Assembly: GCA_023819375.1 (NCBI GenBank)
Contig: JAMWDI010000006.1
Location: 45,384 to 109,383 of the forward strand
Source: Candidatus Omnitrophota bacterium
GTDB taxonomy: Bacteria > Ratteibacteria > UBA8468 > B48-G9 > JAFGKM01
Length of the DNA stretch: 64,000 nucleotides
Direction of reading: 5' to 3'
Shown here: positions 8,098 through 24,150 of the stretch, piece by piece
Layout of the letters: each line of letters begins with the position of its first letter
Numbering within the stretch: the first letter of the stretch is position 1
The notes under the pieces: model-generated
Seen by the model: the letters and a program-made list of their open reading frames with translations, nothing else
Told to the model about the DNA's origin: nothing
Database searches by the model: none
Translations under genes and position numbers: made by a program

Positions 8098-9504
8098 ATG
8101 AAAATAAAAATTGAACATTTTTTTAGTTTTTTGTCCATCATTTATTTTTTAATTGTTTCTTTTCCTCATATTCCTACCTATAATAATATGTCTATTGATA
8201 GTGGTATTTATGCATATATTGGTCAACAGGTAAATAAAGGCAAAATTTTGTATAAAGAGGTCTGGGATTATAAATTTCCTGCCATCTATTACATATATGC
8301 ATTTCTTTTTAAAATTTTCCCAGATTCAAGATGGACATTATATTTTACAGATGTTTTTATTCATGTATGTATGTTAATCTTAATATTTTTAATTTTGAAA
8401 ATTTTTGAAAAAAGAGATTATTTCTGGATAATTTCTTTTCTCTTTACCACAACTTACAGAATTTATCCTTGTTTTAGTGGGGGCAATTTAGCAGAACATT
8501 TCTTTTTATTTATATCTTTTATTTCTTTATATTTATTATTTAAAAAACCTACAAAATTTTTTGATTTTACTCTTGGCAATTGTTTTGTCTGGATGTTAAT
8601 GTTCAAACAACCTTATATTTTGATTGTGTTAATAATATTCTTATTTTTTAAAGATAGAATTTTAAAGGGCGAAAAAAAATTCTTCTTTTGTGGTTTTCTA
8701 TTATCCTTTTTATTCTTTATTTGTGTGTTTTTAAAAGGAGCCCCTGAAAGTTTCGAAACGGTGACATTTCCTTTTAAAGTTACAAAAGAGAGTAATTTTA
8801 TAACTTTAAATACTTTGAAAAACTTTTTAAATAACCTTGAGTATAAAATAAGGATAATTTTATTTGTTGGTCCAGGAAAGCAAGTCCTATTATTTTTACC
8901 TATTTTTTTCTTTGTAAAAGATAGATTAAAATTTCTCTTTTTTTCTTTATTCCTTTCTTTGCTATTTATTTATTTGACAACTTTCGCTTTGTACGCACAT
9001 TATATACTTTTATTAAACATTTTAATTTTATTAGGGAGTATTATCTTGATAAAAAATTATCCAAAAAAATTTGCTTTATTTTTCCTTATTTTATTTACTT
9101 TATGGCCATTAACATTAATTAAAAAAAGGTTTATACATTCCTATAATGCCTTTTATAAATTTTTTGTTTTGAAAGACCACAGAATAAGAGTATATCCAAT
9201 TGTTTTTACTGTTGCAAAATATATTAAACCTAATGAAACTCTTTTTATGATACCTGATTATTGTGAAGTTTATTTTATATTGAAAATTGAAAGTCCTTGG
9301 CGATTTTGTGGAATTGGACAAGGAATCCCAAATTATCCAAAATTTAAAAATGAATTAAAAAAACTTATTAGAGAAAAACCTCCTGATTATTTTTATCTTG
9401 AGATTTCAATTAAAGAATTTGAAAATATTTTTGATCTTAAACCAAGTGAATATAAGTTAACTTTTCTTGAAAACAATCTTTATAAATTTAAAATTTTAAA
9501 ATAA
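8098..9504 (+). CDS. GT39-like multi-membrane glycosyltransferase, paralogue of the gene at 5731
   Basis: 468 aa with about ten hydrophobic helices. The first loop reads SIDSGIYAYIGQQVNKG, followed by FPAIYYIYAFLFKIFPDSRW, aligning closely with the 5731 product. The C-terminal ETLFMIPDYCEVYFILKIESPWRF again matches its partner. It is likely a duplicated polyprenyl-sugar transferase. It follows the URO-D-like gene by 4 nt without an obvious ribosome binding site. Its last 25 nt overlap the end of the convergent GT4 gene, leaving no room for a terminator between the two operons. Confidence 0.8.
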   Translation: MKIKIEHFFSFLSIIYFLIVSFPHIPTYNNMSIDSGIYAYIGQQVNKGKILYKEVWDYKFPAIYYIYAFLFKIFPDSRWTLYFTDVFIHVCMLILIFLILKIFEKRDYFWIISFLFTTTYRIYPCFSGGNLAEHFFLFISFISLYLLFKKPTKFFDFTLGNCFVWMLMFKQPYILIVLIIFLFFKDRILKGEKKFFFCGFLLSFLFFICVFLKGAPESFETVTFPFKVTKESNFITLNTLKNFLNNLEYKIRIILFVGPGKQVLLFLPIFFFVKDRLKFLFFSLFLSLLFIYLTTFALYAHYILLLNILILLGSIILIKNYPKKFALFFLILFTLWPLTLIKKRFIHSYNAFYKFFVLKDHRIRVYPIVFTVAKYIKPNETLFMIPDYCEVYFILKIESPWRFCGIGQGIPNYPKFKNELKKLIREKPPDYFYLEISIKEFENIFDLKPSEYKLTFLENNLYKFKILK

Positions 9505-10637
9505 AAATTTTGATAATTTTCAATCATTTTTTCTACTGAAAAATTTTTCTTTACTAATAAGTAATTTTTCTCACCCATACTCTTGCAAATTTCAGGATTT
9601 TGAAGTAAAAACAAAATTTTCTTTGAAATATCTTCTATATCTTTTGGTTTAACAAGAAATCCATTTATTCCATCATCTATTATTTCTTTTCCTCCACCAT
9701 ATTCAGAGCATATTACAGGCTTTTTACATGCCATTCCTTCAAGGATTAAATTTGGCATACCTTCCCATAAAGAAATAAGAACAATTATATCTGAAATTTT
9801 TATTAATTTTGGTAAATCTTGTCTAAAACCTGTAAATATAATATCCTTTTCCAATCCTAAATTTTGAATTAATCTCTCAAGTTTTCCTCTTTCAGGTCCT
9901 TCCCCTACTATCAAGAATTTTACTTCTTCAAATTCTTCTTTAACCCTTTTGCTAACATATAAAAAGGTTTCTAAATTTTTCTCAAATGACAATCTACCGC
10001 CAGTAAGAACTATTTTTTCATTCTCAATTCCAAATTCTTTTTTCAAATCATCAAATTCTATTTCGTCTTTCTCATATTTTTCTATTTCAATTCCATTATA
10101 TATAACATCTACTTTTTCAATACTTGCATTTAACCTCTTTAAATAAATGTTTTTAACTTCCTCTGAATTACAGACAATTTTTTTTGTAAATTTTAATAAA
10201 ATTTTATCTATAAAGAGATGATACCATTTCTTCCATAAATCAAGACTCCTTTCAGAAGCAATTATGACAGGGATTTTACATATAATTCCTGCAATTCTAC
10301 CCCAGAAATTTGAAGTAAACATAAATGTGTGTAAAATGTTTGGTTTTTCTCTTTTAAGTATTTTTATTAATCGGAAAAGAATAAAAAGATCAAATTTATA
10401 TTTTTTTTCCAGAATATAAAGTTTTGTTATTTTTTTAAAATCTTCTTTCATTCTTCCGCTTCTTAAAGAAATTAAAACAGTTTCAAAAATTTTCTTATCT
10501 AGATTTTTAATTAATAAATAAAGTTGTTTTTCTGCTCCACCAATTTGGAGAGTTCCTATAACAAAGCAAATTTTAATTTTCTTTGATGGATGAAATTTTA
10601 TTTTGTCCTGCCCAGTTATACCACTTTTCAATATCAT
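9480..10637 (-). CDS. GT4 family glycosyltransferase
   Basis: About 385 aa from the ATG at 10637. A TTG at 10649 would add four residues, and the true start could be later because the domain begins only at KIKICFVIGTLQIGGAEKQLYLL. GT-B fold: an N-terminal acceptor domain with GGAEKQ, then a donor domain with VLTGGRLSFEKNLETFL and the retaining E-x7-E motif in SLWEGMPNLILEGMACKKPVI. It is the last gene of the leftward flippase operon and its start overlaps the HEAT-repeat gene by about 65 nt. It adds one sugar during repeat-unit assembly; the donor is unknown. Confidence 0.88.
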   Translation of the reverse strand: MILKSGITGQDKIKFHPSKKIKICFVIGTLQIGGAEKQLYLLIKNLDKKIFETVLISLRSGRMKEDFKKITKLYILEKKYKFDLFILFRLIKILKREKPNILHTFMFTSNFWGRIAGIICKIPVIIASERSLDLWKKWYHLFIDKILLKFTKKIVCNSEEVKNIYLKRLNASIEKVDVIYNGIEIEKYEKDEIEFDDLKKEFGIENEKIVLTGGRLSFEKNLETFLYVSKRVKEEFEEVKFLIVGEGPERGKLERLIQNLGLEKDIIFTGFRQDLPKLIKISDIIVLISLWEGMPNLILEGMACKKPVICSEYGGGKEIIDDGINGFLVKPKDIEDISKKILFLLQNPEICKSMGEKNYLLVKKNFSVEKMIENYQNFYFKILNL

Positions 10638-11754
10638 ATCCCAAATCAATACCTGTTATTTTTTTTAATGATTCTCTTGCAATTTTTTTAAGTTCGTAAT
10701 TTTCACTTTTTAATAAATTAATCAATGAATAAATAGCTCTTTTGTCTCTAATTTCACCAAGAGCATAGGCAGAATATTCTCTGATGAGTAAGTGGTATCT
10801 GTCATTCAAATTTGATATAAGTGGCAATGTTGCTCTTTTATCTTTAAAAACTGCAAGGGCTTTTATTGCTTCAAGTTTTACTTCTATTTGTTTATCATAA
10901 ATTAAATTCAAAATTGGTTCAAAAAATCTTACATTATTAAATTCACAGGCAGATTTAATACTTGCAATTTTTACATACCAGTTTGAATCATTTAGCAATT
11001 CTATTAAACAAGAAATTGTTCTGGGATTTTTTATTTTTCCAAAAGTTTCAGCGATCTCTTTTCTTACAAAATTATTCTTATCATTGACAAGTGGAATTAA
11101 TTTTTCAACATCAACATTTTCTTTTATTTCCCCTATTGACCAAATTGCATATTTTCTTATTTCCCAATTTTTATCTTTCAAACATTCATAAAGATAAGGA
11201 AGAGATTTTTTGATTTTATTTTGTCCAAAATAAATTATTATTTTTATTTTTGTGTTATCATCTTGATTTTTGACAAAATTTATTAAAAAATCTATTTCAT
11301 CTTCATGTTTTGCCAAAATCATAAGGGCTTTTTCTCTAATTTCTGAATCTTCAGTATTTATTAAATTTTCAAGAGTTTTTATTCCATTTTTATCGTTCAT
11401 TTCGTCTACTAACTCAATCATTTTTAATTTTTTCTTTTTTGAAACTTCTGGATCATTTAGTTTTTCAAAAATATATGGTAGTATGTCAGGACCAATTTTT
11501 AACAACGTTTTCTTACTTTCCTCTGAAGGAGTTGTTTTTCCTAAATTTTTATCTGCTATAACTGTTTCATCGTCAAGAATATCTAAAAGATAAGGAATAC
11601 TTTCTCTTATTTCACATTTAAAGTTTCTTAATCTATAAGCAGAGAGGGCTTTTTTTAAAGCATTGTTTGATTTTAAATTTTCAATTTCTATTTGTAGTTC
11701 TTGTGAAAATAAAACTGAAAGAATTGAAAAGAAAATTAAAAAATATTTTCTCAT
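10573..11754 (-). CDS. Exported HEAT-repeat protein
   Basis: 393 aa from the ATG at 11754, preceded by a good AGAAGGAG ribosome site. A longer reading to 11841 would run into asnB and bury the signal peptide. MRKYFLIFFSILSVLFSQ is a typical signal peptide. The rest is a chain of roughly 30-residue helical repeats (for example LPYLYECLKDKNWEIRKYAIWSIGEIK and TISCLIELLNDSNWYVKIASIKSAC) typical of HEAT/PBS-lyase-type repeats, with no catalytic motif. It is probably a periplasmic scaffold. Its place between asnB and a GT4 gene suggests a role in glycan assembly or export, but this is inferred from position only. Confidence 0.8.
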   Translation of the reverse strand: MRKYFLIFFSILSVLFSQELQIEIENLKSNNALKKALSAYRLRNFKCEIRESIPYLLDILDDETVIADKNLGKTTPSEESKKTLLKIGPDILPYIFEKLNDPEVSKKKKLKMIELVDEMNDKNGIKTLENLINTEDSEIREKALMILAKHEDEIDFLINFVKNQDDNTKIKIIIYFGQNKIKKSLPYLYECLKDKNWEIRKYAIWSIGEIKENVDVEKLIPLVNDKNNFVRKEIAETFGKIKNPRTISCLIELLNDSNWYVKIASIKSACEFNNVRFFEPILNLIYDKQIEVKLEAIKALAVFKDKRATLPLISNLNDRYHLLIREYSAYALGEIRDKRAIYSLINLLKSENYELKKIARESLKKITGIDLGYDIEKWYNWAGQNKISSIKEN

Positions 11755-11770
11755 TTTTTTTCTCCTTCTC

Positions 11771-13660
11771 TTAATTAATTTTATAAATTTTTCTCCATAA
11801 TTCAAAAACAAGAATAAGAAATAATCTTGCCGAATGATCAACTTTTCCTTCTATGTGCTCATCAATTATATTTTTTACAATTTTAAAATCAAATAAATCC
11901 AGTTTGTTAAATTCATTATCTAAAAGAATTTCTTTTAAATAATTTCTTAATTCCTCCCTAAACCATTTTCCAAGAGGAACACCAAATCCCATTTTTTTTC
12001 TTTTCAAAATTTCCTCTGGTAAGAAATTTTTTAGTTTTTCTTTCAATATATATTTACTAATATTTCTTCTTAATTTCAAATCTGCAGGAAAAGTTGAAAT
12101 AAGTTCTATAAATTCTGTATCCAAAAATGGACTTCTTCCTTCAATAGAATTTGACATGCAGGCAATATCCATTTTAACAAGTAGAACTTCTGGAAGATAA
12201 AGATTAAAATCGCAAAAAATCATTTTTTCAAGCAAATCCCAGTTGTTTGTTTTTTCCCATAATTTCTCTGTTATTTCAAATGAATTATAATTTTTAAGTA
12301 TATTTTTGAAATTCTTACTATACAATTTTTGTTTCCATTCGGGCGAAAAAGATGTTAAACGCCTTGAATAGGCAAAACAAAAACCATTATCATCTGCTTC
12401 TTGTAGCCATTTTAAGATACGAGAAATCAAGGAATAGGGTTTCCAATCATAAATTTTCTTGATTAATATTTTAGTATTTTTGTTAAGTGTCCCAGATATT
12501 TTGAAAATTTTATATAATTTTTCAAGTAATTTTGTTTGATAATATCTTGGATATCCTGCAAAATTTTCATCTCCCCCATCTCCATTAAGTGCAACTTTAA
12601 CATATTTGCTTGTTTGTTGTGCTATATAGTAAGTTGGAATCATTGAAGAATCACCAAATGGTTCATTATAATACCAAACAAGTTTTGGCAATATTTCTAT
12701 AATATTGGGTTTAACAACAAATTCATAATGTTCTGTTTTAAATTTTTCTGCCACAATTCTCGCATATTTTAATTCATTAAAGTTCTTGACATCAAAACCA
12801 ACAGAAAATGTTTTTATGGGCTGACTTGATAAATTACTTATAATTCCAACAATAGTTGAAGAGTCAATTCCTCCTGATAAAAAGGCACCAATTGGGACAT
12901 CTGCTATCATTCTTATTTTTGTTGCTTCTTTTAATTTTTCCCATAAAAGTTCTTTATATTCATTTTCATTTCTTAAATATAGTTTCTTATTAAAATCAAT
13001 TTCCCAATACTTTTTTATTTTTATTTCTCCGTTTCTGTATATTAAATAATGGGCAGGCTGTAATTTTTTAATGTTTTCAAATATAGTTTTTGGTGATGGT
13101 ATTGCTTGATATGTAAAAAAATTATCAATGGCCTTAAAGTCAATCTTTTTTTCAATTTCTGGAACTTGCAGTAAACCTTTAATTTCAGAAGCAAAATAAA
13201 AATTTCCATTTTTGATTGTATAAACAAGAGGTTTTTTTCCAAGACGGTCTCTTGCAAGGAATAAAATTTTGTTTCTTTTGTCCCATATCGCAAAAGCAAA
13301 CATCCCTCTTAGATAATTTAAACAATTCTCCTTTTCTTCTTCATAAAGATGAACAATGACTTCATTATCTGATTTTGTTTGGAAAATATGTCCATTTTTT
13401 TCGAGATTTTTTCTTAAATCAATAAAATTGTATATTTCACCATTACAAACTAAAATCAAACTCTTATCTTCATTAAATAATGGTTGTTTTCCTGTTTCTA
13501 AGTCAATTATACTTAATCTCTTATGTCCTAATCCAACATTTTCTTCAAAAAAATAACCTTCTTCATCTGGCCCCCTATAATTCATAATTTCAATCATTTT
13601 TTTTAATTCTTCAATTTTTACCTTTTCTGCTTTTTTAATTATTCCAACTATTGCACACAT
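11771..13660 (-). CDS. asnB: Asparagine synthetase (glutamine-hydrolysing)-like amidotransferase
   Basis: 629 aa. The N-terminal nucleophile cysteine follows the initiator Met (MCAIVGI). The class II glutaminase domain covers roughly 1-200, with NYRGPDEEG and CNGEIYNF. The synthetase domain has the ATP pyrophosphatase loop LSGGIDSS at about 261-268. All expected motifs are intact. AsnB makes asparagine from aspartate, but homologues inside polysaccharide loci are thought to amidate sugar acids or other acceptors. Here it is flanked by glycosyltransferases, its start overlaps the stop of the upstream GT4 gene by 1 nt, and so a glycan role is likely though not provable. The symbol names the family. 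Confidence 0.9.
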   Translation of the reverse strand: MCAIVGIIKKAEKVKIEELKKMIEIMNYRGPDEEGYFFEENVGLGHKRLSIIDLETGKQPLFNEDKSLILVCNGEIYNFIDLRKNLEKNGHIFQTKSDNEVIVHLYEEEKENCLNYLRGMFAFAIWDKRNKILFLARDRLGKKPLVYTIKNGNFYFASEIKGLLQVPEIEKKIDFKAIDNFFTYQAIPSPKTIFENIKKLQPAHYLIYRNGEIKIKKYWEIDFNKKLYLRNENEYKELLWEKLKEATKIRMIADVPIGAFLSGGIDSSTIVGIISNLSSQPIKTFSVGFDVKNFNELKYARIVAEKFKTEHYEFVVKPNIIEILPKLVWYYNEPFGDSSMIPTYYIAQQTSKYVKVALNGDGGDENFAGYPRYYQTKLLEKLYKIFKISGTLNKNTKILIKKIYDWKPYSLISRILKWLQEADDNGFCFAYSRRLTSFSPEWKQKLYSKNFKNILKNYNSFEITEKLWEKTNNWDLLEKMIFCDFNLYLPEVLLVKMDIACMSNSIEGRSPFLDTEFIELISTFPADLKLRRNISKYILKEKLKNFLPEEILKRKKMGFGVPLGKWFREELRNYLKEILLDNEFNKLDLFDFKIVKNIIDEHIEGKVDHSARLFLILVFELWRKIYKIN

Positions 13661-14802
13661 TATTTAAGTACCTCTTTATAAATATTTAAAATACACCTAA
13701 TACAGTTTTCCCATGTAAAAATTTTACTTCTTTTTACACCTTTTTCTCTTAAATCTTCTTTTAAATTATCATTTTTTAAAATATTGAATATTTTGTCAAC
13801 TGCGTCATCTCTCTCAAATGGATTTACATAAATACCAGCATCCTGAACTATTTCAGGTAAAGAAGAAATATTTGAAACAATAACAGGGGCTCCACAACTC
13901 ATTGCTTCAACTACTGGAAGTCCAAAGCCTTCATAGAGTGAGAGAAAAATAAAAATTTCAGCACCAGAATAAAAATAAGGCATATCTTCTTTTGGAATTT
14001 CAGAAAAACAATAAACATGTTCTGAAATGTTCTTTTCCATTGCAAGTTTCAAAATATCTTTTTTTAAATAGTTAGTTCCAACAATTATTACAAGTTTTTC
14101 CTCAATTTTCTTTTCTTTTAAAATTTTGTAAATATCAAATAAAAATGGGATATTTTTCCTTTTTATAGAAGTTGCAACTGTTAAGATATATCTTTCATAA
14201 CTAAAATATTTTTTCAGTTTTTCAAAAGCATATTTCTTTTCAATTGGTCTGAAAACTTTGTGATTTACTCCCAAATAAACAACTTTTATTCTTTCTTCTG
14301 GAAGTTTATAAATTTCCATTATATCTTTTTTGGTTGAAAAAGAAGGGACTATGATTATATCACTTCTTATTGCTGAACTCTTTATTTCAGAATACCATTT
14401 TTCTTTATAAACTTCTGGCATAATTTCAAAAGATAAATCATAAATTGTATAAATTGTTTTAATTTTTTTAAACAAAGGAAGATATGTTGCAGAAATTCCA
14501 TGATAGATTGAAATTTTTTCTCTTTTTAATAATGTTTCAATAAAGGGGATTTTAAATTTTTCTTCTACAATTTTTATGAATTTTTTAGGAAATGGTAAAA
14601 TTTTTAAAGAAAAATTATTAGATTCTGGAATCTGAATATTTTTTATTCTTTTCCAATAATTTTTTAAAAAAAAACCAAAAATTAAATATTCATTTTCTTT
14701 ATCAATTGAACTTAAAGTATCCAAAAGTTCCGGAAGTAGATAATAAATCCCACCTTTTTCTGTTGAACTCAAACCGATACCAGCATCTATACATATTTTC
14801 AT
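13660..14802 (-). CDS. GT4 family glycosyltransferase
   Basis: 380 aa, GT-B fold. The N-terminus MKICIDAGIGLSSTEKGGIYYLLPEL is typical of mannosyl- or rhamnosyltransferase-like GT4 proteins. The donor domain shows ILTVATSIKRKNIPFLFD and the E-x7-E motif within SLYEGFGLPVVEAMSCGAPVI. Its start overlaps gmd by 4 nt and its stop overlaps asnB by 1 nt, so it is tightly coupled inside the operon. It closely resembles the product at 15782, suggesting duplication and successive addition of related sugars. Given gmd next door, a GDP-hexose donor is plausible but unproven. Confidence 0.9.
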   Translation of the reverse strand: MKICIDAGIGLSSTEKGGIYYLLPELLDTLSSIDKENEYLIFGFFLKNYWKRIKNIQIPESNNFSLKILPFPKKFIKIVEEKFKIPFIETLLKREKISIYHGISATYLPLFKKIKTIYTIYDLSFEIMPEVYKEKWYSEIKSSAIRSDIIIVPSFSTKKDIMEIYKLPEERIKVVYLGVNHKVFRPIEKKYAFEKLKKYFSYERYILTVATSIKRKNIPFLFDIYKILKEKKIEEKLVIIVGTNYLKKDILKLAMEKNISEHVYCFSEIPKEDMPYFYSGAEIFIFLSLYEGFGLPVVEAMSCGAPVIVSNISSLPEIVQDAGIYVNPFERDDAVDKIFNILKNDNLKEDLREKGVKRSKIFTWENCIRCILNIYKEVLK

Positions 14803-15785
14803 TTTTTAATTTTTAATTCAAGTTCTTTTAAATCATTTTCAACCATTATTCTCACAAGTTCTTCAAATTTCACCTTTGGTTGCCATCCAAGTTTGGTTTT
14901 TATTTTTGTAATATTGCCCCTTAATTCATAAACTTCTGCAGGTCTAAAAAGAGTTTTATCAATTTCAACATATTTTTCCCAATTTAGGTTAACTATTTTA
15001 AATGCAAGTTCTACAAATTCTTTAACTGAATGAGTTTCTCCAGTTGCAATTACATAATCTTCTGGTTTTTCCTGCTGTAACATTAAATACATTGCTTCAA
15101 CATATTCAGGAGCATAGCCCCAGTCTCTTTTTGCTTCAAGATTTCCAAGTTTTATTTTATCTAAAAGCCCCAATTTGATCATAGCAACACCTCTTGAAAT
15201 TTTCCTTGTAACAAATTCAAAACCTCTTCTTGGAGATTCATGATTAAAACAAATACCACTACAAGCAAACATATTATATGCTTCCCTATAGTTTTTTGTA
15301 AAATAATATCCAACAACTTTTGAAATACCATAAGGAGATCTTGGATTAAAAGGTGTATTTTCATTTTGTGGCGTTTCAATTGCCATTCCAAACATTTCAC
15401 TTGATGCAGCAAAATAAAATTTACAATCTGGTTTTCTATTTTTTAAAGCAGAAAGAATATAAATTGTTCCATTTATATTTGTATTTAAAGTTGAAAATTC
15501 ATCTTCAAAGGAATAACTTACAAAACTTTGTGCTGCAAGATGATAACATTCATCAGGTTTAACTTTTTCAACTATGTTATATATACTTGCATAACTTTCA
15601 AGAGAACCACAATGAAGATGAATTTTATCAACTATATGTCTTATTCTCCATAATCTATGCTCAGGATCTTCAAAAGCCACTCTCCTTACTATTCCATGGA
15701 CTTCATATCCCTTTTCAAGCAATAATTCAGCAAGATATGAACCATCCTGACCCGTAATTCCAGTTATTAATGCCCTTTTTTTCAT
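14799..15785 (-). CDS. gmd: GDP-mannose 4,6-dehydratase
   Basis: 328 aa, extended short-chain dehydrogenase. The NADP-binding motif GITGQDGSYLAELLLEKGYEVHG opens the protein. YHLAAQSFVSYSFEDE, the catalytic YGISK tyrosine-lysine pair and FNHESPRRGFEFVTRKI are hallmarks of GMD. It converts GDP-D-mannose to GDP-4-keto-6-deoxymannose, the precursor of GDP-fucose, GDP-rhamnose or GDP-perosamine. None of the finishing enzymes (fucose synthase, RMD or PerA) is in this window. It overlaps both neighbours by 4 nt and clearly belongs to the glycan operon. Confidence 0.95.
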   Translation of the reverse strand: MKKRALITGITGQDGSYLAELLLEKGYEVHGIVRRVAFEDPEHRLWRIRHIVDKIHLHCGSLESYASIYNIVEKVKPDECYHLAAQSFVSYSFEDEFSTLNTNINGTIYILSALKNRKPDCKFYFAASSEMFGMAIETPQNENTPFNPRSPYGISKVVGYYFTKNYREAYNMFACSGICFNHESPRRGFEFVTRKISRGVAMIKLGLLDKIKLGNLEAKRDWGYAPEYVEAMYLMLQQEKPEDYVIATGETHSVKEFVELAFKIVNLNWEKYVEIDKTLFRPAEVYELRGNITKIKTKLGWQPKVKFEELVRIMVENDLKELELKIKK

Positions 15786-16933
15786 ACTACCTCCTTTTTT
15801 AACCTCTTATAAATTTCTAATGTCTCTTTAGCGGTCTTTTCCCAACTAAATAATTTTGCTCTTTCCAGTCCCTTATTTATTAATTCATTCCTTAATTCAA
15901 CATTTGTTAAAATTTTTTCTATAGCATAAACTATCTCTTCTATATTGTAAGGGTTGACTAAAATACCAGCATTACCTGCAACTTCCGGTAAAGAGGAAAT
16001 GTTTGAAGTGATGACTGGAACTCCACAGGCCATTGCTTCAATTACTGGTAATCCAAATCCTTCATATAAAGATGGATATACAAAGACTTCACATCCATTA
16101 TAAAGATAAGGCATTTCATAAATTGGAACATATCCTGTAAGTATTATATCTTTTGTTATTTTTTCAGGGATTTCAGCCATTTTTTTGTAAAAAATTTCTG
16201 ATTTCCAACCAATCTGACCACAAATGACAAGTTGCAATTCAGGAATTTTATTTTTTATTAAAATAAAAGCGTCAATCAATCTTATTATATTTTTTCTTGG
16301 TTCAATTGTTCCAACAAAAAGTAAATATTTTTTTGTAATTCCATATTTCTTTTTTACATTTTCTATTTTTTCTTTATCTTCTAATTTTTTATAAATTTCA
16401 GATGGAGCAAGATAGACAACATCTATTTTTTCAGAATTTAATTTGAAATAGTTTATAAGGTCATTTTTTGTTGAAAAAGAATCTGCAATAATTTTATCAA
16501 CTCTTTTAACTGCTCTTAAAATAATAAATTTAAATTTTTCATAATGTAAGGGTAAAAACCAATCAGGATTAATTAAAGGTGTTATATCATGTATAGTAAT
16601 GACTTGTTTTCCTAAAATATTGACTGGTGAAAAGGGGTGCAAAGTATGAATTATATCAAATTTCCCATGGTAAAATTCTATTGGTATAAATGTCTGAACT
16701 GTATAATTATAAATTTTATTTGAAAAGAACTTAATACTTACCTTAAAATTTTTCTGCTTGAATTCTTCTTTAATTTTTTTCATTTCTTTATATTTCTTTA
16801 TCGAAACTGCATAAAGAATATAAAAATTTTCAGTATCAATTTTGCTTAAATTTTTCAAAAGATTATAAGAATACCAACCAATCCCTGCTTTTTTGTTCCA
16901 TGCTAAAGGAGTAATGTCAATTCCTATCTTCAT
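15782..16933 (-). CDS. GT4 family glycosyltransferase
   Basis: 383 aa GT-B enzyme. It starts MKIGIDITPLAWNKKAGIGWYSYNLLKNL. The donor domain has LLFVGTIEPRKNIIRLIDAF and YPSLYEGFGLPVIEAMACGVPVITSNISSLPEVAGNAG, the standard retaining GT4 motifs with E-x7-E. It is similar to the protein at 13660. It overlaps gmd by 4 nt and lies 2 nt after the nucleotidyltransferase gene. The likely task is adding a mannose-like or 6-deoxyhexose residue to the lipid-linked repeat unit. The exact sugar is not readable. Confidence 0.9.
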   Translation of the reverse strand: MKIGIDITPLAWNKKAGIGWYSYNLLKNLSKIDTENFYILYAVSIKKYKEMKKIKEEFKQKNFKVSIKFFSNKIYNYTVQTFIPIEFYHGKFDIIHTLHPFSPVNILGKQVITIHDITPLINPDWFLPLHYEKFKFIILRAVKRVDKIIADSFSTKNDLINYFKLNSEKIDVVYLAPSEIYKKLEDKEKIENVKKKYGITKKYLLFVGTIEPRKNIIRLIDAFILIKNKIPELQLVICGQIGWKSEIFYKKMAEIPEKITKDIILTGYVPIYEMPYLYNGCEVFVYPSLYEGFGLPVIEAMACGVPVITSNISSLPEVAGNAGILVNPYNIEEIVYAIEKILTNVELRNELINKGLERAKLFSWEKTAKETLEIYKRLKKEVV

Positions 16934-16935
16934 TT

Positions 16936-17634
16936 TTAGAAATATTTTTCACAAATATCTATATCTTCTCTAAAATTTATATTTATATAAAATCCTTCAA
17001 AAATTACTGGACTTATAAATTCTCCCCCATCAATCATCTTTTGAATTACATCTGTTATTTCAATTTCATTTCTTAGAGGAGATGGTGGTGTTATTTTAAT
17101 ATAATCAAAAACAACTCTATCAAAGAAATAAAAACCCATTCCACATAAATTGTTGACAATATGTTTTGGTTTTTCTACAACCTTAATAACTTTTTTATTT
17201 TTTATTTCAACTGAGTAACTCTTTTTTATATCTTCAGGATTATCTGTTTTCCAAACTCCTATACCTTGTTTCATGTTTTTGGGAAAAATAAAATTTCCCT
17301 TGCATAGACAATCTCCTAAGACAACTATGAATTTTTTATTTACATAATCTTCAACAAGGGAAACCGCATGACCAATTCCTTTTAATTCTTTTTGTTCAAC
17401 AAACTCGCTTTTGATATTTAGGGTTTTAACATATTCAATTATTTTTTCTTTTTTGTAACCTACAACAAAAATAAATTTATCTGTTATATTTTTCCAATAA
17501 TCAATAATATAATAAAGAATAGGTTTATTTTTTATCAAGATCATGCTTTTGGGTAAATCTGGTTCGTTTAATCGAAGTCCTTTCCCTGCACATAAAACTA
17601 CACATTTCAAATCTTCTTTAAAAAATTTTTCCAT
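16936..17634 (-). CDS. Sugar-phosphate nucleotidyltransferase
   Basis: 232 aa from the ATG at 17634, which has AAGGG upstream and lies just after the stop of the previous gene; a reading to 17661 would overlap that gene needlessly. VVLCAGKGLRLNEPDLPKSMILIKNKPILYYIIDYW is the nucleotide-binding signature of the glucose-1-phosphate uridylyl/thymidylyltransferase family, with GxGxR and PK. FIVVLGDCLCKGNF holds the metal-binding aspartate and VVEKPKHIVNNL follows. It makes an NDP-sugar for the cluster. The base and sugar are uncertain. Confidence 0.85.
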   Translation of the reverse strand: MEKFFKEDLKCVVLCAGKGLRLNEPDLPKSMILIKNKPILYYIIDYWKNITDKFIFVVGYKKEKIIEYVKTLNIKSEFVEQKELKGIGHAVSLVEDYVNKKFIVVLGDCLCKGNFIFPKNMKQGIGVWKTDNPEDIKKSYSVEIKNKKVIKVVEKPKHIVNNLCGMGFYFFDRVVFDYIKITPPSPLRNEIEITDVIQKMIDGGEFISPVIFEGFYININFREDIDICEKYF

Positions 17635-17635
17635 T

Positions 17636-18901
17636 TTAGTTTTTCCCTTTATAAAATTCAATAATTTTACTTATATTTTTTTCATTATCCCATATTTCTT
17701 TTGCTTTTTTAAATGCATTTTCTCCAAATTTTTTTACAAGTTCATTATTTTTTAACAATATCTTTATTTTTTCAGCGAACTCATAAATATTTTGAGGTTC
17801 ACAAAGAAAGCCTTCTTTTCCATCTTCTATAAATTCTTTAATTCCTCCTATTCTACTTGCTACAATCGCTTTTTTATTAAACATACTTTCAACAAGAACG
17901 ACAGGAGACATATTTTCCCACTGTTCAGGAATTACAACTACTTTTGATTCTTTAAAATATTTTTTAATTTCTTGATGATGTAATTTCCCTTTAATTACAA
18001 CATTCTCGCTTAAATTTTTATCTTTTATCATTTTAAAAATATTTTCAACATATTTTTTTTCAACATTTTCAATTTCTCCAATTACATATAAAAGAACATC
18101 TGGAATTTCTTTTTTTATATTACTTAATGCTTCAATCAAAATATGAAGTCCTTTTCTGTATTGAATCCATCCTATATAAAGTAATATATTTCCTTTTGGT
18201 AAATCATATGGTTCATCTTTAAACTCCTCAAATATTTGAGGAATAACTTTTGATTTTCTTATTGAAAGGCCATATTCTCTACCAATTTTTAAGGAAGAGT
18301 TTGATAAGAAAATGTATCCATCTATTTTTTTTAGAAAGAAGTTGAAAAATTTTTTTCTTAAAGGTAAAAATATTCTAAATCTAAATTGGATTTTAAAACA
18401 CTTGAAACAATAAATACTGTTATATTTTTTACAGATATTATTGTTTAAATCAATCAATGTTTCATTCGGGCAGAAAAACCAATAATCATAAATAGATAGA
18501 AAAGATTTTATTTTGTAAAGTTTAACCCATATTAAGGGTGCAAATGAAATTTTTTTAAAATTGTGAAAATGAACAATTTCTGGTTTTATTTTTTTAAGAA
18601 TTTTCCTTGATTTTAAAAAGACAATTATATCAAAAGGAAAAATTATTTTGAAAAAATCAAAATTGCTTAAAATCCTGTTTTTTAAACTTTTAGGCTTTTT
18701 AAAGTCAATATAATTGTAAATTGTTTTTGTAACAAAAACATTTTTCTCTAAAATCTTATTTTTTGTTGGTGGTGTTATAAGATAATAATTTTTTATTTTA
18801 TTTTTCTCTAATTCTTTAACCAACCTCATAGTTGCAATTTCTGCACCACCATAAAAGTCATGATAATCAGGATGAAAGTCAACTATGTGTAAAATTTTCA
18901 T
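17636..18901 (-). CDS. GT4 family glycosyltransferase
   Basis: 421 aa. MKILHIVDFHPDYHDFYGGAEIATMRLVKEL has the GGAE motif of GT4 acceptor domains. The donor domain reads LLYIGWIQYRKGLHILIEALSNI, later followed by PEQWENMSPVVLVESMFNKKAIVASRIGGIKEFI. The second glutamate of E-x7-E is clear; the first lies in EQWENMSP, a variant of the usual EGFG. Mid-protein cysteines (PNETLIDLNNNICKKYNSIYCFKCFK) form a small Cys cluster often seen in this GT4 branch. It overlaps the radical SAM gene by 4 nt. Donor and acceptor are unknown. Confidence 0.88.
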   Translation of the reverse strand: MKILHIVDFHPDYHDFYGGAEIATMRLVKELEKNKIKNYYLITPPTKNKILEKNVFVTKTIYNYIDFKKPKSLKNRILSNFDFFKIIFPFDIIVFLKSRKILKKIKPEIVHFHNFKKISFAPLIWVKLYKIKSFLSIYDYWFFCPNETLIDLNNNICKKYNSIYCFKCFKIQFRFRIFLPLRKKFFNFFLKKIDGYIFLSNSSLKIGREYGLSIRKSKVIPQIFEEFKDEPYDLPKGNILLYIGWIQYRKGLHILIEALSNIKKEIPDVLLYVIGEIENVEKKYVENIFKMIKDKNLSENVVIKGKLHHQEIKKYFKESKVVVIPEQWENMSPVVLVESMFNKKAIVASRIGGIKEFIEDGKEGFLCEPQNIYEFAEKIKILLKNNELVKKFGENAFKKAKEIWDNEKNISKIIEFYKGKN

Positions 18902-20037
18902 TTTATATATTCTTTTATCTTTTTAAAAATTTTTTTTGCTATTGAAATTTTATAAGGCCTCATATCTGATGTCATTTTGTATATTTTTTCTTGTAAATCT
19001 TTTGAATATGTATCTGCTATTGGCTTTGCTTTTTCTCCATAAAATAAAGAGTCATATTGCATTTGTTTATCAAAAGGAACATAATAAGAAAAATGAGCAT
19101 TTATTCCTATTTGTTTTGCCCATTCTAAACTTTTTAAGTCCTTTTCATATGATGAACCGGGTAAACCTATAATGAAAAATCCATTAACACTATCAAAATA
19201 TTTTTTAGCAATCAAAACCGCTTTTTCAATATCTTTACTTGTTTCTCCTTTTTTAATAAATTTTAAAATTTCGTCATCAATACTTTCTATTCCAAAACTT
19301 ATATGAGTACATCCTGCTTCTTTTAAAGCAATTGCCACTTCTTCATCAAATCTATCTGCTCTTAAACCATTGGCACAACTCCATTTTAAATTTAAGTTTT
19401 TAACAAGTTCACAAAATTTTATAACTCTTTTTTTGTCTACATTAAAGCAGTCGTCAAGAATTGAAAAAGATTTTATATTCCACTTTTCTTTTGCTAATTT
19501 AAGTTCCTCATAACAATTTTCTGGACTTCTAGTCAGATATTTTTTATTTCTGCTTACACAATAGATACACTGATAAGGACATCCCTGAGAGGTCATTATA
19601 GCATAATTCCATACACCTTTTTGCCAGTTTTTGAGAAATATCGGAAAAGAATCAAAGAGTTCATAATTTGGAAAAGGTAGTTGGTCTGAAAAGGGTATAT
19701 TTATTTCTATTTTTTCATCAAAATTAATATAGGGATAACAACATTGAACTTCAATTATTCCAGATACAGACTTTATTTTTGCTTCAGGATATTTTTTCTT
19801 ATATTTTTCAGCAATTTTCCTTGCTTCACTATATGTTCTTGATTGAATAGAAATACCAACTGTATCTGCTTTTATTTTTAAGTATCTATTTTTGGGTTTG
19901 GGTAAAGTATTTAAATCAATTATTCTACAATTTAAAATAGTTCCAATATAAGCAATTCCAATATTGGGTATATCAAAATTTACTCCTGCATAAGGATTAA
20001 TCAAAATTATGTTTTTATATTTTATCGGATATTCCAT
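18898..20037 (-). CDS. Radical SAM protein with reduced B12-binding-like N-terminus
   Basis: 379 aa from the ATG at 20037 (MEYPIKYKNIILINPY); a reading to 20082 lies wholly inside the upstream gene. The 4Fe-4S/SAM motif CPYQCIYC places cysteines near 153, 157 and 160. The following FSILDDCFNVDKKRV and HISFGIESIDDEILKFIKKG are typical of B12-binding-type radical SAM proteins. The N-terminal 120 residues look like a shortened cobalamin domain (DTVGISIQSRTYSEARKIAEKYKKKYP), but no DxHxxG cobalamin motif is present, so B12 binding is doubtful. Substrate unknown. It overlaps the second radical SAM gene by 23 nt, within a glycan operon. Confidence 0.85.
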   Translation of the reverse strand: MEYPIKYKNIILINPYAGVNFDIPNIGIAYIGTILNCRIIDLNTLPKPKNRYLKIKADTVGISIQSRTYSEARKIAEKYKKKYPEAKIKSVSGIIEVQCCYPYINFDEKIEINIPFSDQLPFPNYELFDSFPIFLKNWQKGVWNYAIMTSQGCPYQCIYCVSRNKKYLTRSPENCYEELKLAKEKWNIKSFSILDDCFNVDKKRVIKFCELVKNLNLKWSCANGLRADRFDEEVAIALKEAGCTHISFGIESIDDEILKFIKKGETSKDIEKAVLIAKKYFDSVNGFFIIGLPGSSYEKDLKSLEWAKQIGINAHFSYYVPFDKQMQYDSLFYGEKAKPIADTYSKDLQEKIYKMTSDMRPYKISIAKKIFKKIKEYIK

Positions 20038-21235
20038 ATTTTTCTTCTCTATCAATTGTATTATATGCTCTACACCCTGCACATAGAATTGGAACTTTTT
20101 CTCTTTTTTTTACAATCATCTTTCTAAATTCTATATATCTCTTTGAATACCATATTTCTTTAAAAGGTTTTTCAAAAATGTTGCCTAAAGCATATTTTTT
20201 TAAAAAATCTCTTTTATTAGACATTAAAACTGCACAACAAGGCATTACATATCCGCCCATCATAATATAGGGTTCCTGCCAAGCAATGCAATTATGCATT
20301 GGTTGTAAATTTTTAGGATGTGTTGGATGAACAAATGAAATATTCATTCCAAGTTTTTTTGCTTTTTTTATTGTCAATTTTATTAATTCATCAGGTATTT
20401 TAGGCAAAAAAAGATGTTCAATTTCTGGAAAATAAAGTAATCCTGTAAATTCAATTCTACTTCCTGGACCCAATAAATTTTTATTTAATGAATATACAAG
20501 TTCAACAAAATCTGGCATTTCGTGAACATTTAATTTATTAACTATATATCTAAAATAAACTTCTGGAATTGGAGATTTATATTCTTTTTTTAATTTTAAA
20601 AATGTTTTAATGTTGTTTAAGGTTTTTTCAAAATTACAACCAATTTTTATTTTTTCATAAGTTTCTTTTGTTGCTGCATCAATTGAAATATAGATTGTGT
20701 CTACTCCAAGTTCTATAAGTTTTTTAGAAATATTTTCATCAATTAAATCAAAACTATCAACTAATGCAACAAAAATATCTCTCTTTTTTAAATATTCAAT
20801 CATTTTTAAATAATCTTTATTCAAAAAAGCATCACCTTCACCTGTTAAATTAACCCATTTTAATTTTGGAAAATTTGAAATGATTTTTTTAAATTCTTCA
20901 AAACTTAAATCTTTGTTTGGTTCTTTCCAATAGGTATGTTCACAGATTAAACATTTCTTATTACATTTTGTTGTAATTTCAATTTCTAAGACTTGTGGAT
21001 AGCCTATTATTTCAGGGATTAAATTGGGATATAATTTTAAAATTGGAAGAAAGATTGAACCTATCCAATTGCCAGTCCCTTCTCCACCAGCAAAAACAAA
21101 AAATTTTGTCCATAGAAATTTATATAATCCTCTAATACCCCTTTTTCTTAAAATATAAAAGATAATTTTTTTGTAATTGAACAAATTGAAGATTGGAGTT
21201 ATTATAAGTTCTAAATTTTTAAAAATTTTTTTCAT
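20015..21235 (-). CDS. Radical SAM protein with SPASM-like C-terminus
   Basis: 406 aa. EIEITTKCNKKCLICEHTYW carries the CxxxCxxC cluster at about 91, 95 and 98, with LSFEEFKKIISNFPKLKWVNLTGEGDAFLNKDYLKMI after it, as in SPASM/twitch proteins. The C-terminal part has MPCCAVLMSNK, then GNIFEKPFKEIW and PILCAGC, cysteines that could hold an auxiliary cluster. The family modifies peptides, sugars and cofactors. It overlaps the flippase gene by 17 nt and the next radical SAM gene by 23 nt. Together they suggest an unusual chemical step on the surface polymer, which is inference. Confidence 0.85.
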   Translation of the reverse strand: MKKIFKNLELIITPIFNLFNYKKIIFYILRKRGIRGLYKFLWTKFFVFAGGEGTGNWIGSIFLPILKLYPNLIPEIIGYPQVLEIEITTKCNKKCLICEHTYWKEPNKDLSFEEFKKIISNFPKLKWVNLTGEGDAFLNKDYLKMIEYLKKRDIFVALVDSFDLIDENISKKLIELGVDTIYISIDAATKETYEKIKIGCNFEKTLNNIKTFLKLKKEYKSPIPEVYFRYIVNKLNVHEMPDFVELVYSLNKNLLGPGSRIEFTGLLYFPEIEHLFLPKIPDELIKLTIKKAKKLGMNISFVHPTHPKNLQPMHNCIAWQEPYIMMGGYVMPCCAVLMSNKRDFLKKYALGNIFEKPFKEIWYSKRYIEFRKMIVKKREKVPILCAGCRAYNTIDREEKYGISDKI

Positions 21236-22709
21236 TTTTAATCATTTCCTTAATCCAATTTGTTTTTAAGACTAACCCAAAATAGACAATGCAGCAAAAG
21301 ATTACTTCAATAAATAAAAGATAAATATTCTTGTTAAAAAATTTAAAACTATTTATTAACCATACAATTAAAAAAAGCAAACTACTTCCCATCAATGGAA
21401 CAAAAATAGAGTTTTTAAAAGTAAAAGAAAAGTTTATTTTTAGAATTTTATGAAAAATCCACAGTAAATATGAAGTGCTGAGGCTAATGGAAATTAATGT
21501 GGCAATTATCACACCAACAAAACCTATAATTTTTATTAAAACGTATGTAAGGACTATATTTAAAATACTTTGAAATACACTGGCATACATTTGATATTCT
21601 GGCTTTTCTATACCTACTAAAATTGCAGTTAAATTTGAAGAAAGTAAAGTTATTAAAAAAATTAAACTGAATAATCTTAAAACAATAATTGAATTTTCAT
21701 ATCCAGGCCCAACCCATACATTTATTATTAAAGGAGCAGCTGCAGTTATAAAAAACATAATTGGAAAGGCAAAAGTTGAAACATATTTCAATCCATATGT
21801 ATGTAATTTTATTAATTTCCCCTTTTCATTTAATGCTTTCAATTCTGCTGATGCAGGTACAATTGCCGAATTTAAAACTCTTATCATACTTGCAAGTTTT
21901 TCAGGTATAGTATATCCGATCTGATAAATTCCAACAAGGCCTACATTTAAAAAGTGCGATATGAAAAATTTATCCGTTTGATATGTTATAACTTCTTCAA
22001 TTGTAGTTAGCCATCTTTTAATCCCAAATTTACTCAATTTTTTTAACATGTTTTTTTCAAAGTTTAAAAAATTCATTTCAACTTCAGGAAATATTTTAAA
22101 AACAAAATAGATATATATTAAACTTCCAATTGAGTATACAAGAAAATTATTAAGCATCAATCCTTTTATTCCCCAGTTATTTTTTATAAAGAAGATAACA
22201 CCTAAAGCGTGTAGAGATGTGAGAAATATTGTAATTTTCCCTGTGATATCCATTCTTTGAAATCCCCTTATGCAACTTTGAAAAAGATTAAAGATGTTAG
22301 AAAATCCTACATAAATAATTGTCCATTTAAAAAGGAATTGAGTATCATCTTTAAATTCCTGTGGTATTTTTAGAATTTTTATTAAATAGGAAGGAGAAAA
22401 AAAAGCAAGTGGTAACAGAATTAAAAATATAATGAAATAAAAAAATAAACCAGATTTTATTACATAATTTATGTTGTCTATCTCATTTTTTGTCTTATAT
22501 TCTGCAATATATCTTTCAAAGGACTGCCCTATACCAAAATCAATAAGAGAAAAATATCCTGTTATCAATGTAATTAAAGACCATATACCATATCTATTTA
22601 CTCCAAGATTTTTTAGAACAAAAGGAACAAGGAAAAATCCTAAAATAGCAGAATACCCATAACTTATAAGATTGTAGATTGTGTTTCTTATAATTTTTTC
22701 TTTTAACAT
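21219..22709 (-). CDS. Polysaccharide flippase (Wzx/MVF-type)
   Basis: 496 aa, about twelve to fourteen hydrophobic helices. The start MLKEKIIRNTIYNLISYGYSAILGFFLVPFVLKNLGVNRYGIWSLITLI is characteristic of the oligosaccharide flippase family (PF01943/PF13440 type). It moves lipid-linked repeat units across the inner membrane. It is the first gene of the leftward glycan operon. No Shine-Dalgarno sequence precedes the ATG, and the predicted transcription start is about 5 nt upstream, so the transcript may be leaderless. The start codon touches the operator described at 22709-22749. Named by family only, since wzx genes vary greatly. Confidence 0.9.
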   Translation of the reverse strand: MLKEKIIRNTIYNLISYGYSAILGFFLVPFVLKNLGVNRYGIWSLITLITGYFSLIDFGIGQSFERYIAEYKTKNEIDNINYVIKSGLFFYFIIFLILLPLAFFSPSYLIKILKIPQEFKDDTQFLFKWTIIYVGFSNIFNLFQSCIRGFQRMDITGKITIFLTSLHALGVIFFIKNNWGIKGLMLNNFLVYSIGSLIYIYFVFKIFPEVEMNFLNFEKNMLKKLSKFGIKRWLTTIEEVITYQTDKFFISHFLNVGLVGIYQIGYTIPEKLASMIRVLNSAIVPASAELKALNEKGKLIKLHTYGLKYVSTFAFPIMFFITAAAPLIINVWVGPGYENSIIVLRLFSLIFLITLLSSNLTAILVGIEKPEYQMYASVFQSILNIVLTYVLIKIIGFVGVIIATLISISLSTSYLLWIFHKILKINFSFTFKNSIFVPLMGSSLLFLIVWLINSFKFFNKNIYLLFIEVIFCCIVYFGLVLKTNWIKEMIKNEKNF

Positions 22710-22749
22710 TTGTTTAATTTATTTTAAACAAATTAAACAATTTTGTCAA
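22709..22749 (-). promoter_or_regulatory. Sigma70 promoter with overlapping inverted-repeat operator for the glycan operon
   Basis: On the reverse strand TTGACA (22749-22744) is followed after 17 nt by TAAAAT (22726-22721). A perfect 9-bp inverted repeat, TTTGTTTAA with TTAAACAAA (22709-22717 and 22724-22732, 6-nt spacer), covers the -10 box. A further TTAAACAA half-site lies at 22733-22740 between the boxes. A bound regulator would block RNA polymerase. The same half-sites occur in front of the adjacent regulator gene. Confidence 0.75.
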
Positions 22750-22758
22750 CAAAAAATT

Positions 22759-23241
22759 TTATTTTGAGGAAATTATTGTAGAATAACTTTGCAAATATTT
22801 AAGGTTTTTAGAAAAAAACTCAAGTTTATCTGTTAGTTTTTCAATTTCTTTTATTTTGTTTTTTATTAATTTTTCATTTTTTACCTTTTCAATATTTTTC
22901 TTTATTTCTTTCAGATATTTTCTGATTTCATTTATTCTTTTTAGAAGTCCTGTTTGTAATTTATTTATTATAATTCCTTCTATATCTTCATTTGCTTTAT
23001 ATAGTGGTCTTGTATGTCCCCTTTTCCAGACTTTTTCAACTGCATTCCAATCTTCAAGTTTTTTTAGATTTATACTTACATTACCCTTACTAATTCCAAG
23101 TTCTTTCGTTATTTGGGAAGGAGAAAGAGGTTTTGAATTTAAATATAAAAGAGCATAAATTTGACAGGTTGTTCTATTAAGTCCCAATCCTTCTCCTATG
23201 TTTCCAGCCAGTTCTATCAGTTTTTCTTTTATTTTATCCAT
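22759..23241 (-). CDS. GbsR/MarR-like winged-helix transcriptional regulator
   Basis: 160 aa. The segment ICQ-like LNRTTCQIYALLYLNSKPLSPSQITKELGISKGNVSINLKKLEDWNAVEKVWKRGHTRPLYKA is a winged helix-turn-helix of the GbsR type (recognition helix around ISKGNVSINLKKL). The C-terminal third is a charged, likely coiled-coil dimerisation helix (RINEIRKYLKEIKKNIEKVK). GbsR homologues often sit beside exopolysaccharide or solute genes. Its promoter carries the same operator half-sites as the downstream flippase operon, so autoregulation plus control of the glycan operon is likely. The start at 23241 has no Shine-Dalgarno sequence. The effector is unknown. Confidence 0.85.
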   Translation of the reverse strand: MDKIKEKLIELAGNIGEGLGLNRTTCQIYALLYLNSKPLSPSQITKELGISKGNVSINLKKLEDWNAVEKVWKRGHTRPLYKANEDIEGIIINKLQTGLLKRINEIRKYLKEIKKNIEKVKNEKLIKNKIKEIEKLTDKLEFFSKNLKYLQSYSTIISSK

Positions 23242-23244
23242 TTT

Positions 23245-23290
23245 GTTTAACTTGTTTTATATATTTTAAACTTTTGAAAAGAAAAATCAA
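23245..23290 (-). promoter_or_regulatory. Promoter and autoregulatory operator of the GbsR-like gene
   Basis: Reverse strand: TTGATT (23290-23285) and TAAAAT (23268-23263), 16 nt apart. The -10 box overlaps GTTTAA-N6-TAAAAC (23271-23254), one mismatch from the GTTTAA-N6-TTAAAC palindrome of the flippase promoter, and a third half-site TTAAAC follows (23250-23245). The -35 box overlaps the end of aroE. Confidence 0.65.
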
Positions 23291-24150
23291 TATTTAAATT
23301 TAGAAAATTCTTGTAAGGATTTCTTCATTATGTCAACCGGTGCTTTTTTCCCAGTCCATATTTCAAATGATATTGCTCCTTGATAGACAAGCATTGAAAG
23401 TCCATCAAGATGTGGAATTTTTAAATTTTCTGCAATTTTTAAAAGTTCAGTTTTTCTGTTATAAACAATATCATAAACAAATTTCACCTTTTCTATATTT
23501 TTTTTGTCTATAAGAAGCGTATCTCCTTCTTTCATCCCAACAGAGGTAGTATTTATTAATATGTCAATACTTTCCCATATCTTTTTTTCGTTTCTTTTTT
23601 CAAATTCAATTATTTCAACCTTTTGAAAATTAAGTTTTCTCTGAATGTGTTCTTTAAGTTTAACAGCATTCTCAAAAGTTCTATTTGTAATAAAAATTGA
23701 ATTAACTTTTTTAGAAATAAGTGAACCACAAATTGCATATGCACTACCACCTGCTCCAATAATAAAAATGTTTTTGTTTTCAGGATCAAATTTCCCATCT
23801 TCTATTAAAGACCTTATAAAGCCATCTCCATCAGTTGTATATCCTTTTAACTTTCCATCTAAATTATGAATAGTATTAACAACTTCAAGTATTTTGCTCG
23901 TTTCATCAAGTTCATCTATATATTTAATGATTTCTTTTTTATGAGGAATTGTTACATTCACACCTATCCAGTTGAAAACTTTTATTGCTTCTACTGCTGT
24001 TTTTAAATTTTCTGGTTTGACTTCAAATGGTAGATAAACAAAGTCAATTCCAAGATATTCAAAAGCAGAATTCTGGAAGATTGGAGAAAGAGTATGGGTC
24101 ACAGGATATCCAAAAACTCCTGTAATTTTTGTTGTACCTTTAATTTTCAT
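23287..24150 (-). CDS. aroE: Shikimate dehydrogenase (NADP+)
   Basis: 287 aa, normal for AroE. The substrate-binding motif FGYPVTHTLSPIFQNSAF, the catalytic lysine in NVTIPHKKEII, the NADP loop IIGAGGSAYAICGSLI and the C-terminal DGLSMLVYQGAISFEIWTG are all present. It reduces 3-dehydroshikimate to shikimate in aromatic amino acid and chorismate synthesis. It stands alone among shikimate genes here and is followed by the GbsR-like regulator, whose -35 box overlaps its stop. The divergent parA gene lies 99 nt away. Confidence 0.95.
   Translation of the reverse strand: MKIKGTTKITGVFGYPVTHTLSPIFQNSAFEYLGIDFVYLPFEVKPENLKTAVEAIKVFNWIGVNVTIPHKKEIIKYIDELDETSKILEVVNTIHNLDGKLKGYTTDGDGFIRSLIEDGKFDPENKNIFIIGAGGSAYAICGSLISKKVNSIFITNRTFENAVKLKEHIQRKLNFQKVEIIEFEKRNEKKIWESIDILINTTSVGMKEGDTLLIDKKNIEKVKFVYDIVYNRKTELLKIAENLKIPHLDGLSMLVYQGAISFEIWTGKKAPVDIMKKSLQEFSKFKY

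Follow-up and report, generated by a model that had tools for sequence, protein, structure and literature searches.

A GbsR-family regulator predicted to repress its own gene and an adjacent surface-glycan operon through a shared palindrome over the -10 boxes

We analysed a window of 64,000 nt (contig JAMWDI010000006.1, positions 45384-109383) from a 1.73-Mb genome, hereafter G000. We consider it highly probable that a 160-aa GbsR-family protein encoded in this window represses its own gene and the adjacent 11-gene glycan operon via a shared palindrome lying over the -10 boxes of both promoters. The shared operator was conserved at the regulator promoter in three families of the phylum and at the glycan-operon promoters of sister species. 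The nearest relatives of G000 include hot-spring MAGs labelled Candidatus Omnitrophota. The analysis provides a sequence-level regulon and an exact predicted operator for uncultured Omnitrophota-labelled bacteria, whose regulation is little known.

Genetic organization of the regulator locus

The reverse strand carries, in this order, aroE (23287-24150), the regulator gene, a 49-bp gap and 11 abutting or overlapping genes extending from 22709 to 9480 (Table 1). This operon of about 13 kb encodes a flippase, two radical SAM proteins, four glycosyltransferases, a nucleotidyltransferase, a GDP-mannose 4,6-dehydratase (gmd), an amidotransferase and a HEAT-repeat protein. Its product is presumably a surface glycan.

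Table 1. Features of the regulator locus and the glycan operon, in window coordinates
Feature	Position	Strand	Remarks
Regulator promoter TTGATT-16-TAAAAT	23263..23290	-	-35 overlaps the end of aroE
Predicted regulator operator GTTTAAAATATATAAAAC	23254..23271	-	one mismatch; over the -10 box; second R1 match; conserved upstream of orthologs
Third half-site TTAAAC, regulator promoter	23245..23250	-	9 bp downstream of the palindrome; kept within the genus
GbsR/MarR-family regulator, 160 aa	22759..23241	-	winged helix and two long C-terminal helices
Third half-site GTTTAA, flippase promoter	22733..22738	-	9 bp upstream of the palindrome, direct orientation
Sigma-70-type flippase-operon promoter TTGACA-17-TAAAAT	22721..22749	-	-35 22749-22744, -10 22726-22721; near-leaderless, ATG 22709
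Predicted glycan-operon operator ATTTGTTTAA-N6-TTAAACAAAT	22708..22733	-	perfect 10-bp arms over the -10 box; best R1 match of the genome
Wzx-type flippase (Polysacc_synt)	21219..22709	-	first operon gene; PF01943 1.3e-17
Radical SAM/SPASM protein	20015..21235	-	
Radical SAM protein, HpnJ-like	18898..20082	-	TIGR03471 below cut-off
Glycosyltransferase, GT4-like	17636..18901	-	
Sugar-1-phosphate nucleotidyltransferase	16936..17661	-	PF00483 1.4e-16
Glycosyltransferase	15782..16933	-	
GDP-mannose 4,6-dehydratase (gmd)	14799..15785	-	TIGR01472 1.3e-125, above cut-off
Glycosyltransferase	13660..14802	-	
Asparagine-synthase-like amidotransferase	11771..13660	-	
HEAT-repeat protein	10573..11841	-	
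Glycosyltransferase	9480..10649	-	final gene of the tightly packed operon; ORFs overlap or abut

The initial annotation had described, at both the flippase and the regulator promoter, a GTTTAA-N6-TTAAAC palindrome laid over the -10 box (with one mismatch in the regulator copy) together with a third half-site, and all of these elements can be read directly from the sequence. The core 18-mer of the flippase operator, GTTTAAAATAAATTAAAC, is an exact palindrome at 22712-22729. Its extended arms had been given as a perfect 9-bp repeat; the repeat is indeed perfect, but it is 10 bp long and runs into the start codon. At both promoters the palindrome lies over the -10 box in almost equal register, and each gene begins only a few bases from it. 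As a sigma-70 match (11/12), the flippase promoter ranked in the top three of the 15.5 kb scanned, and the position of its third half-site is also used in six other genomes (G002, G003, G005, G007, G009 and G010). The -35 hexamer of the regulator promoter is weak, and sister species do not keep TTGATT. At both promoters (22700-22750 and 23240-23300), only a few bases separate the likely transcription start from the ATG and there is no Shine-Dalgarno sequence, as expected of near-leaderless mRNAs; aroE is similar.

Identity of the regulator

The 160-aa protein matched MarR_2 (PF12802) with an E-value of 5.2e-10 and 39.8 bits against a curated cut-off of 27, and this winged helix-turn-helix places it in the MarR superfamily. 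The CudC/GbsR model NF047500 covered residues 2-159 (E 4.5e-15) with a score under the 218-bit equivalog cut-off, indicating that the regulator is not a CudC equivalog. Mj223 (1ku9), the template of GbsR models, matched over profile positions 1-150 with an E-value of 8.6e-28. In the AlphaFold2 monomer model (pLDDT 91), the winged helix is followed by long helices at residues 87-117 and 123-145, and a Foldseek search with this predicted structure returned 1ku9 as the top match. The homology to GbsR, CudC and Mj223 thus spans the full regulator beyond the winged helix, in agreement with the GbsR/MarR-like identity first proposed for it. By sequence and predicted fold, the protein is an Mj223-like member of the GbsR family and no ortholog of the choline sensor. 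No osmoprotectant synthesis or uptake genes were found as its neighbours or targets at the window locus, where the predicted targets are glycan genes.

Of the 35 genomes of the phylum, 21 have an ortholog of the regulator. In all ortholog families except f5, the recognition helix, SK[GA]N[VI]S[IL]N, hardly varies, in line with a constant operator.

Proposed repression and comparison with known GbsR-type systems

In the proposed mechanism, a dimer of the GbsR-family protein would bind the GTTTAA-N6-TTAAAC palindrome over the -10 box of both promoters, and a second dimer may occupy the third half-site, at a distance of 9 bp. The bound dimer would exclude RNA polymerase from the regulator and flippase promoters. 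An effector would release the dimer and the glycan operon would be transcribed; a rising level of the regulator would then close a negative feedback loop. We infer direct binding, the involvement of an effector, and repression rather than activation.

GbsR, OpcR, OpuAR, CydE and CioR are all repressors (PMC6207618, PMC7396694, PMC11837568). Some members of the MarR superfamily do activate transcription (PMC6207618), and three half-sites might allow two binding modes. It is nevertheless improbable that the regulator, bound to this operator, acts as an activator of the glycan operon, alone or combined with repression of its own gene. The register of the palindrome over the -10 box is almost equal at the two promoters, and the GbsR-family members characterised in the cited literature are repressors. 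Furthermore, the flippase promoter has a consensus -35; its near-consensus TTGACA/TAAAAT hexamers at the normal 17-bp spacing indicate a promoter that needs a block and not activation.

The predicted repressor belongs to the same family as GbsR of Bacillus subtilis, which controls gbsAB and opuB, and would resemble it as a dimeric repressor with an A+T-rich inverted-repeat operator that controls neighbouring operons. However, GbsR acts as a roadblock from operators downstream of the transcription start, with half-sites 4 bp apart and choline as inducer (PMC7396694, PMC6207618), whereas the operator predicted here lies over the -10 box, has half-sites 6 bp apart and serves glycan genes. OpcR of B. 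subtilis (opuB, opuC) is also a GbsR-family protein that sterically blocks RNA polymerase at the promoter, as proposed for the window regulator, but it blocks the -35 region, which its operator overlaps (PMC7396694), and its targets are osmoprotectant transporters. CioR and CydE, which act on cytochrome bd operons, are GbsR-type regulators that head their own operon and are direct autorepressors (PMC11837568); their target is respiratory, with no glycan cluster. Mj223 (PDB 1ku9) is the closest solved structure both by sequence and by fold, but it is archaeal.

Of 179 GbsR proteins surveyed in 2018, 80 fell into a heterogeneous group, and polysaccharides went unmentioned (PMC6207618). No link between GbsR proteins and polysaccharides was found in the literature searched, and the role predicted here, repressor of an exchangeable glycan locus, is unrecorded in the literature found. 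Such a role would supply a biological function for some of the unassigned GbsR proteins.

Genome-wide occurrence of the palindrome

Palindromes with at most one mismatch occurred six times in the window and 1.81 +/- 1.24 times in shuffled sequence, and 0 of 100 shuffles reached six. By itself this enrichment is modest, and the operator was therefore tested by cross-genome comparison. Counting exact palindromes alone was uninformative: there are two places in 1.73 Mb, and a reversed control pattern matched more often. One place is the flippase promoter and the other is intragenic, within a HAD-like plus AIR-synthase-like ORF (L001:1501-1518, equal to G000:C8:29540-29557). The counterpart of the latter in G003 (L081) retains the palindrome, also within coding sequence.

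The initial annotation had proposed a whole-genome motif scan. We scanned G000 with R1, a 46-bp sequence-only profile derived from 14 sites, none of them from G000; the genomes are draft MAGs and the R1 E-values are rough. This foreign-site profile gave its best score in the genome to the flippase promoter (E 1.2e-7, 32.7 bits), followed by the regulator promoter (E 9.7e-4, 20.3 bits). The third match (15.8 bits, E 0.025), a one-mismatch palindrome at 14456-14473, falls within one of the operon's glycosyltransferase genes and is probably a chance occurrence. The weak R1 matches of G000 (E 0.03-0.07) and those of G001, G002, G003 and G009 are located away from glycan genes and were not taken as operators.

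Conservation of the operator in related genomes

Across the phylum, each R1 match with an E-value below 1e-3 stood before the regulator or at a glycan-cluster promoter, although many of these sites went into R1 and match by construction. The sites independent of the building of R1 are both G000 sites, the G002 wzm site, the G007 flippase site, the G018 regulator start, the G024 site and the second G025 site. No match below 1e-3 was found in the 26 outgroup genomes, which include several A+T-rich ones; the best was 0.0013. This promoter bias and the excess over shuffled sequence speak against the refuting outcome named in the first reading of the locus, and the comparison of the two promoters in related genomes, also proposed there, found the operator conserved at both kinds of promoter.

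The element lies upstream of most regulator orthologs, for example as TTGACA-N14-GTTTAAAACATATTAAAC in family f2, and the family f5 regulator promoters read TTGACA-N14-GTTTAAAATAGATTAAAC. Among orthologs of 35-77% protein identity, some of them from loci at 45-61% GC, the regulator promoter keeps the A+T-rich palindrome over the -10 box, and each of the 19 sites compared matched at 4-6 of the outer six dyad positions. Given that TAAAAT forms part of the palindrome and that the window is locally about 25% GC, one could suppose that there is no operator and that the promoter hexamers alone are conserved in A+T-rich DNA, with accidental symmetry. We regard this as barely credible. The symmetry extends beyond the hexamers, with GT to the left and TTAAAC to the right, and is kept there also in the GC-rich loci; together with the outgroup scan this largely refutes chance and promoter-only conservation.

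The operator is placed before the regulator, before the first gene of the cluster, or at both. In G009 and G010 it is present at the downstream operon only, with no copy at the regulator; as judged from operator placement, autoregulation is not universal. In G001, no site was found ahead of the glycosyltransferase gene downstream of the regulator. The half-site has diverged to ATGAAC in family f3 (G017 and G019), which R1 misses. In G025 (L064:11040-11130) and G024 (L065:4650-4740), the second operator lies just downstream of the -10 box of a cytidylyltransferase gene, and not over it, a roadblock-like placement.

A site was present but no regulator was found in G024 (completeness 86%) and at the truncated loci of G004 and G018. 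These cases would fit a different transcription factor that uses the palindrome to control both genes, the regulator being a bystander. This is very unlikely, since sites below 1e-3 occur only at the regulator gene or in glycan clusters, and all of them except those of G024 and G002 are on a contig that carries, or is broken at, the regulator; in G002 the regulator is on another contig. Neither the regulator nor an R1 match below 1e-3 was found in family f4, and these joint absences also argue for the GbsR-family protein as the factor that uses the operator. Autoregulated MarR genes usually sit at the head of their cluster, a place that this regulator gene also takes. In G028, a family f4 genome in which the regulator was not found, a repeated TTAGTCTAAAATAGA unit gave a weak R1 match (E 0.0015, L076:1835-1880).

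Conserved control region and exchanged glycan genes

The regulator stands at the head of a polysaccharide cluster in every genome with enough assembled downstream flank. The genes behind it include a Wzm/Wzt exporter in G003, G005, G010 and G020 (in G002 on a separate contig), a flippase in G000, G007, G017, G019, G029 and G031, gmd in G009, G016, G021 and G022, and a sugar-acid type cluster in G025. The glycan operon of some genomes begins with the regulator gene itself, with a single operator for both; in others, including G000, the operon carries a separate copy.

The 43-bp flippase promoter shares 93% identity with the Wzm/Wzt promoters of G002, G003 and G005, whereas the 60-bp flanks were 28-52% identical. 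Ten relatives from the genus and family were searched for the G000 flippase at 1e-8 and gave no match, and Wzm, looked for in G000, was absent. Given that the promoter is kept while the sister species lack the flippase and G000 lacks Wzm, the conservation belongs to the control region. At the sequence level, the control element is retained while the genes behind it change. In G031, which belongs to another family, a flippase and two radical SAM genes follow the regulator in the same order as in G000 (43, 40 and 57% identity, respectively), and homologs of later G000 operon genes stand behind Wzm/Wzt in G020. In addition, seven contigs (in G002, G003 (C96), G004, G012, G013, G018 and G026) end within 700 bp of the regulator on its glycan side, where 1.5 would be expected (Poisson P 9e-4); no contig ends that close on the opposite side. 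This pile-up suggests strain-variable glycan loci.

A broader reading, which we put forward tentatively and rate at a little under an even chance, is that the regulator and the 43-bp operator-promoter form a fixed cap, and that species and strains of the phylum exchange whole cassettes for glycan export and synthesis behind it: Wzx in G000, Wzm/Wzt in its sisters, and gmd or cytidylyltransferase elsewhere. If true, there would be a phylum-wide GbsR class dedicated to keeping newly acquired surface-glycan loci under one switch. With the switch retained and the cargo swapped, surface-glycan diversity could be gained without loss of expression control. UpxY proteins, the NusG-like antiterminators encoded by the locus-specific first genes of exchangeable capsule polysaccharide loci in Bacteroides, are alike in being the product of a locus-specific head gene; they differ as antiterminators from the promoter-binding repressor predicted in the window.

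Two further genes were seen next to the regulator in sister genomes. In G003, the regulator and wzm are separated by a gene for a coiled-coil protein (L028:1644-2543) whose tandem repeats are about 14 residues long (QLTVAQQKTEERIN). G005 has an inserted AAA ATPase gene (L027:3681-4955) that separates aroE from the regulator.
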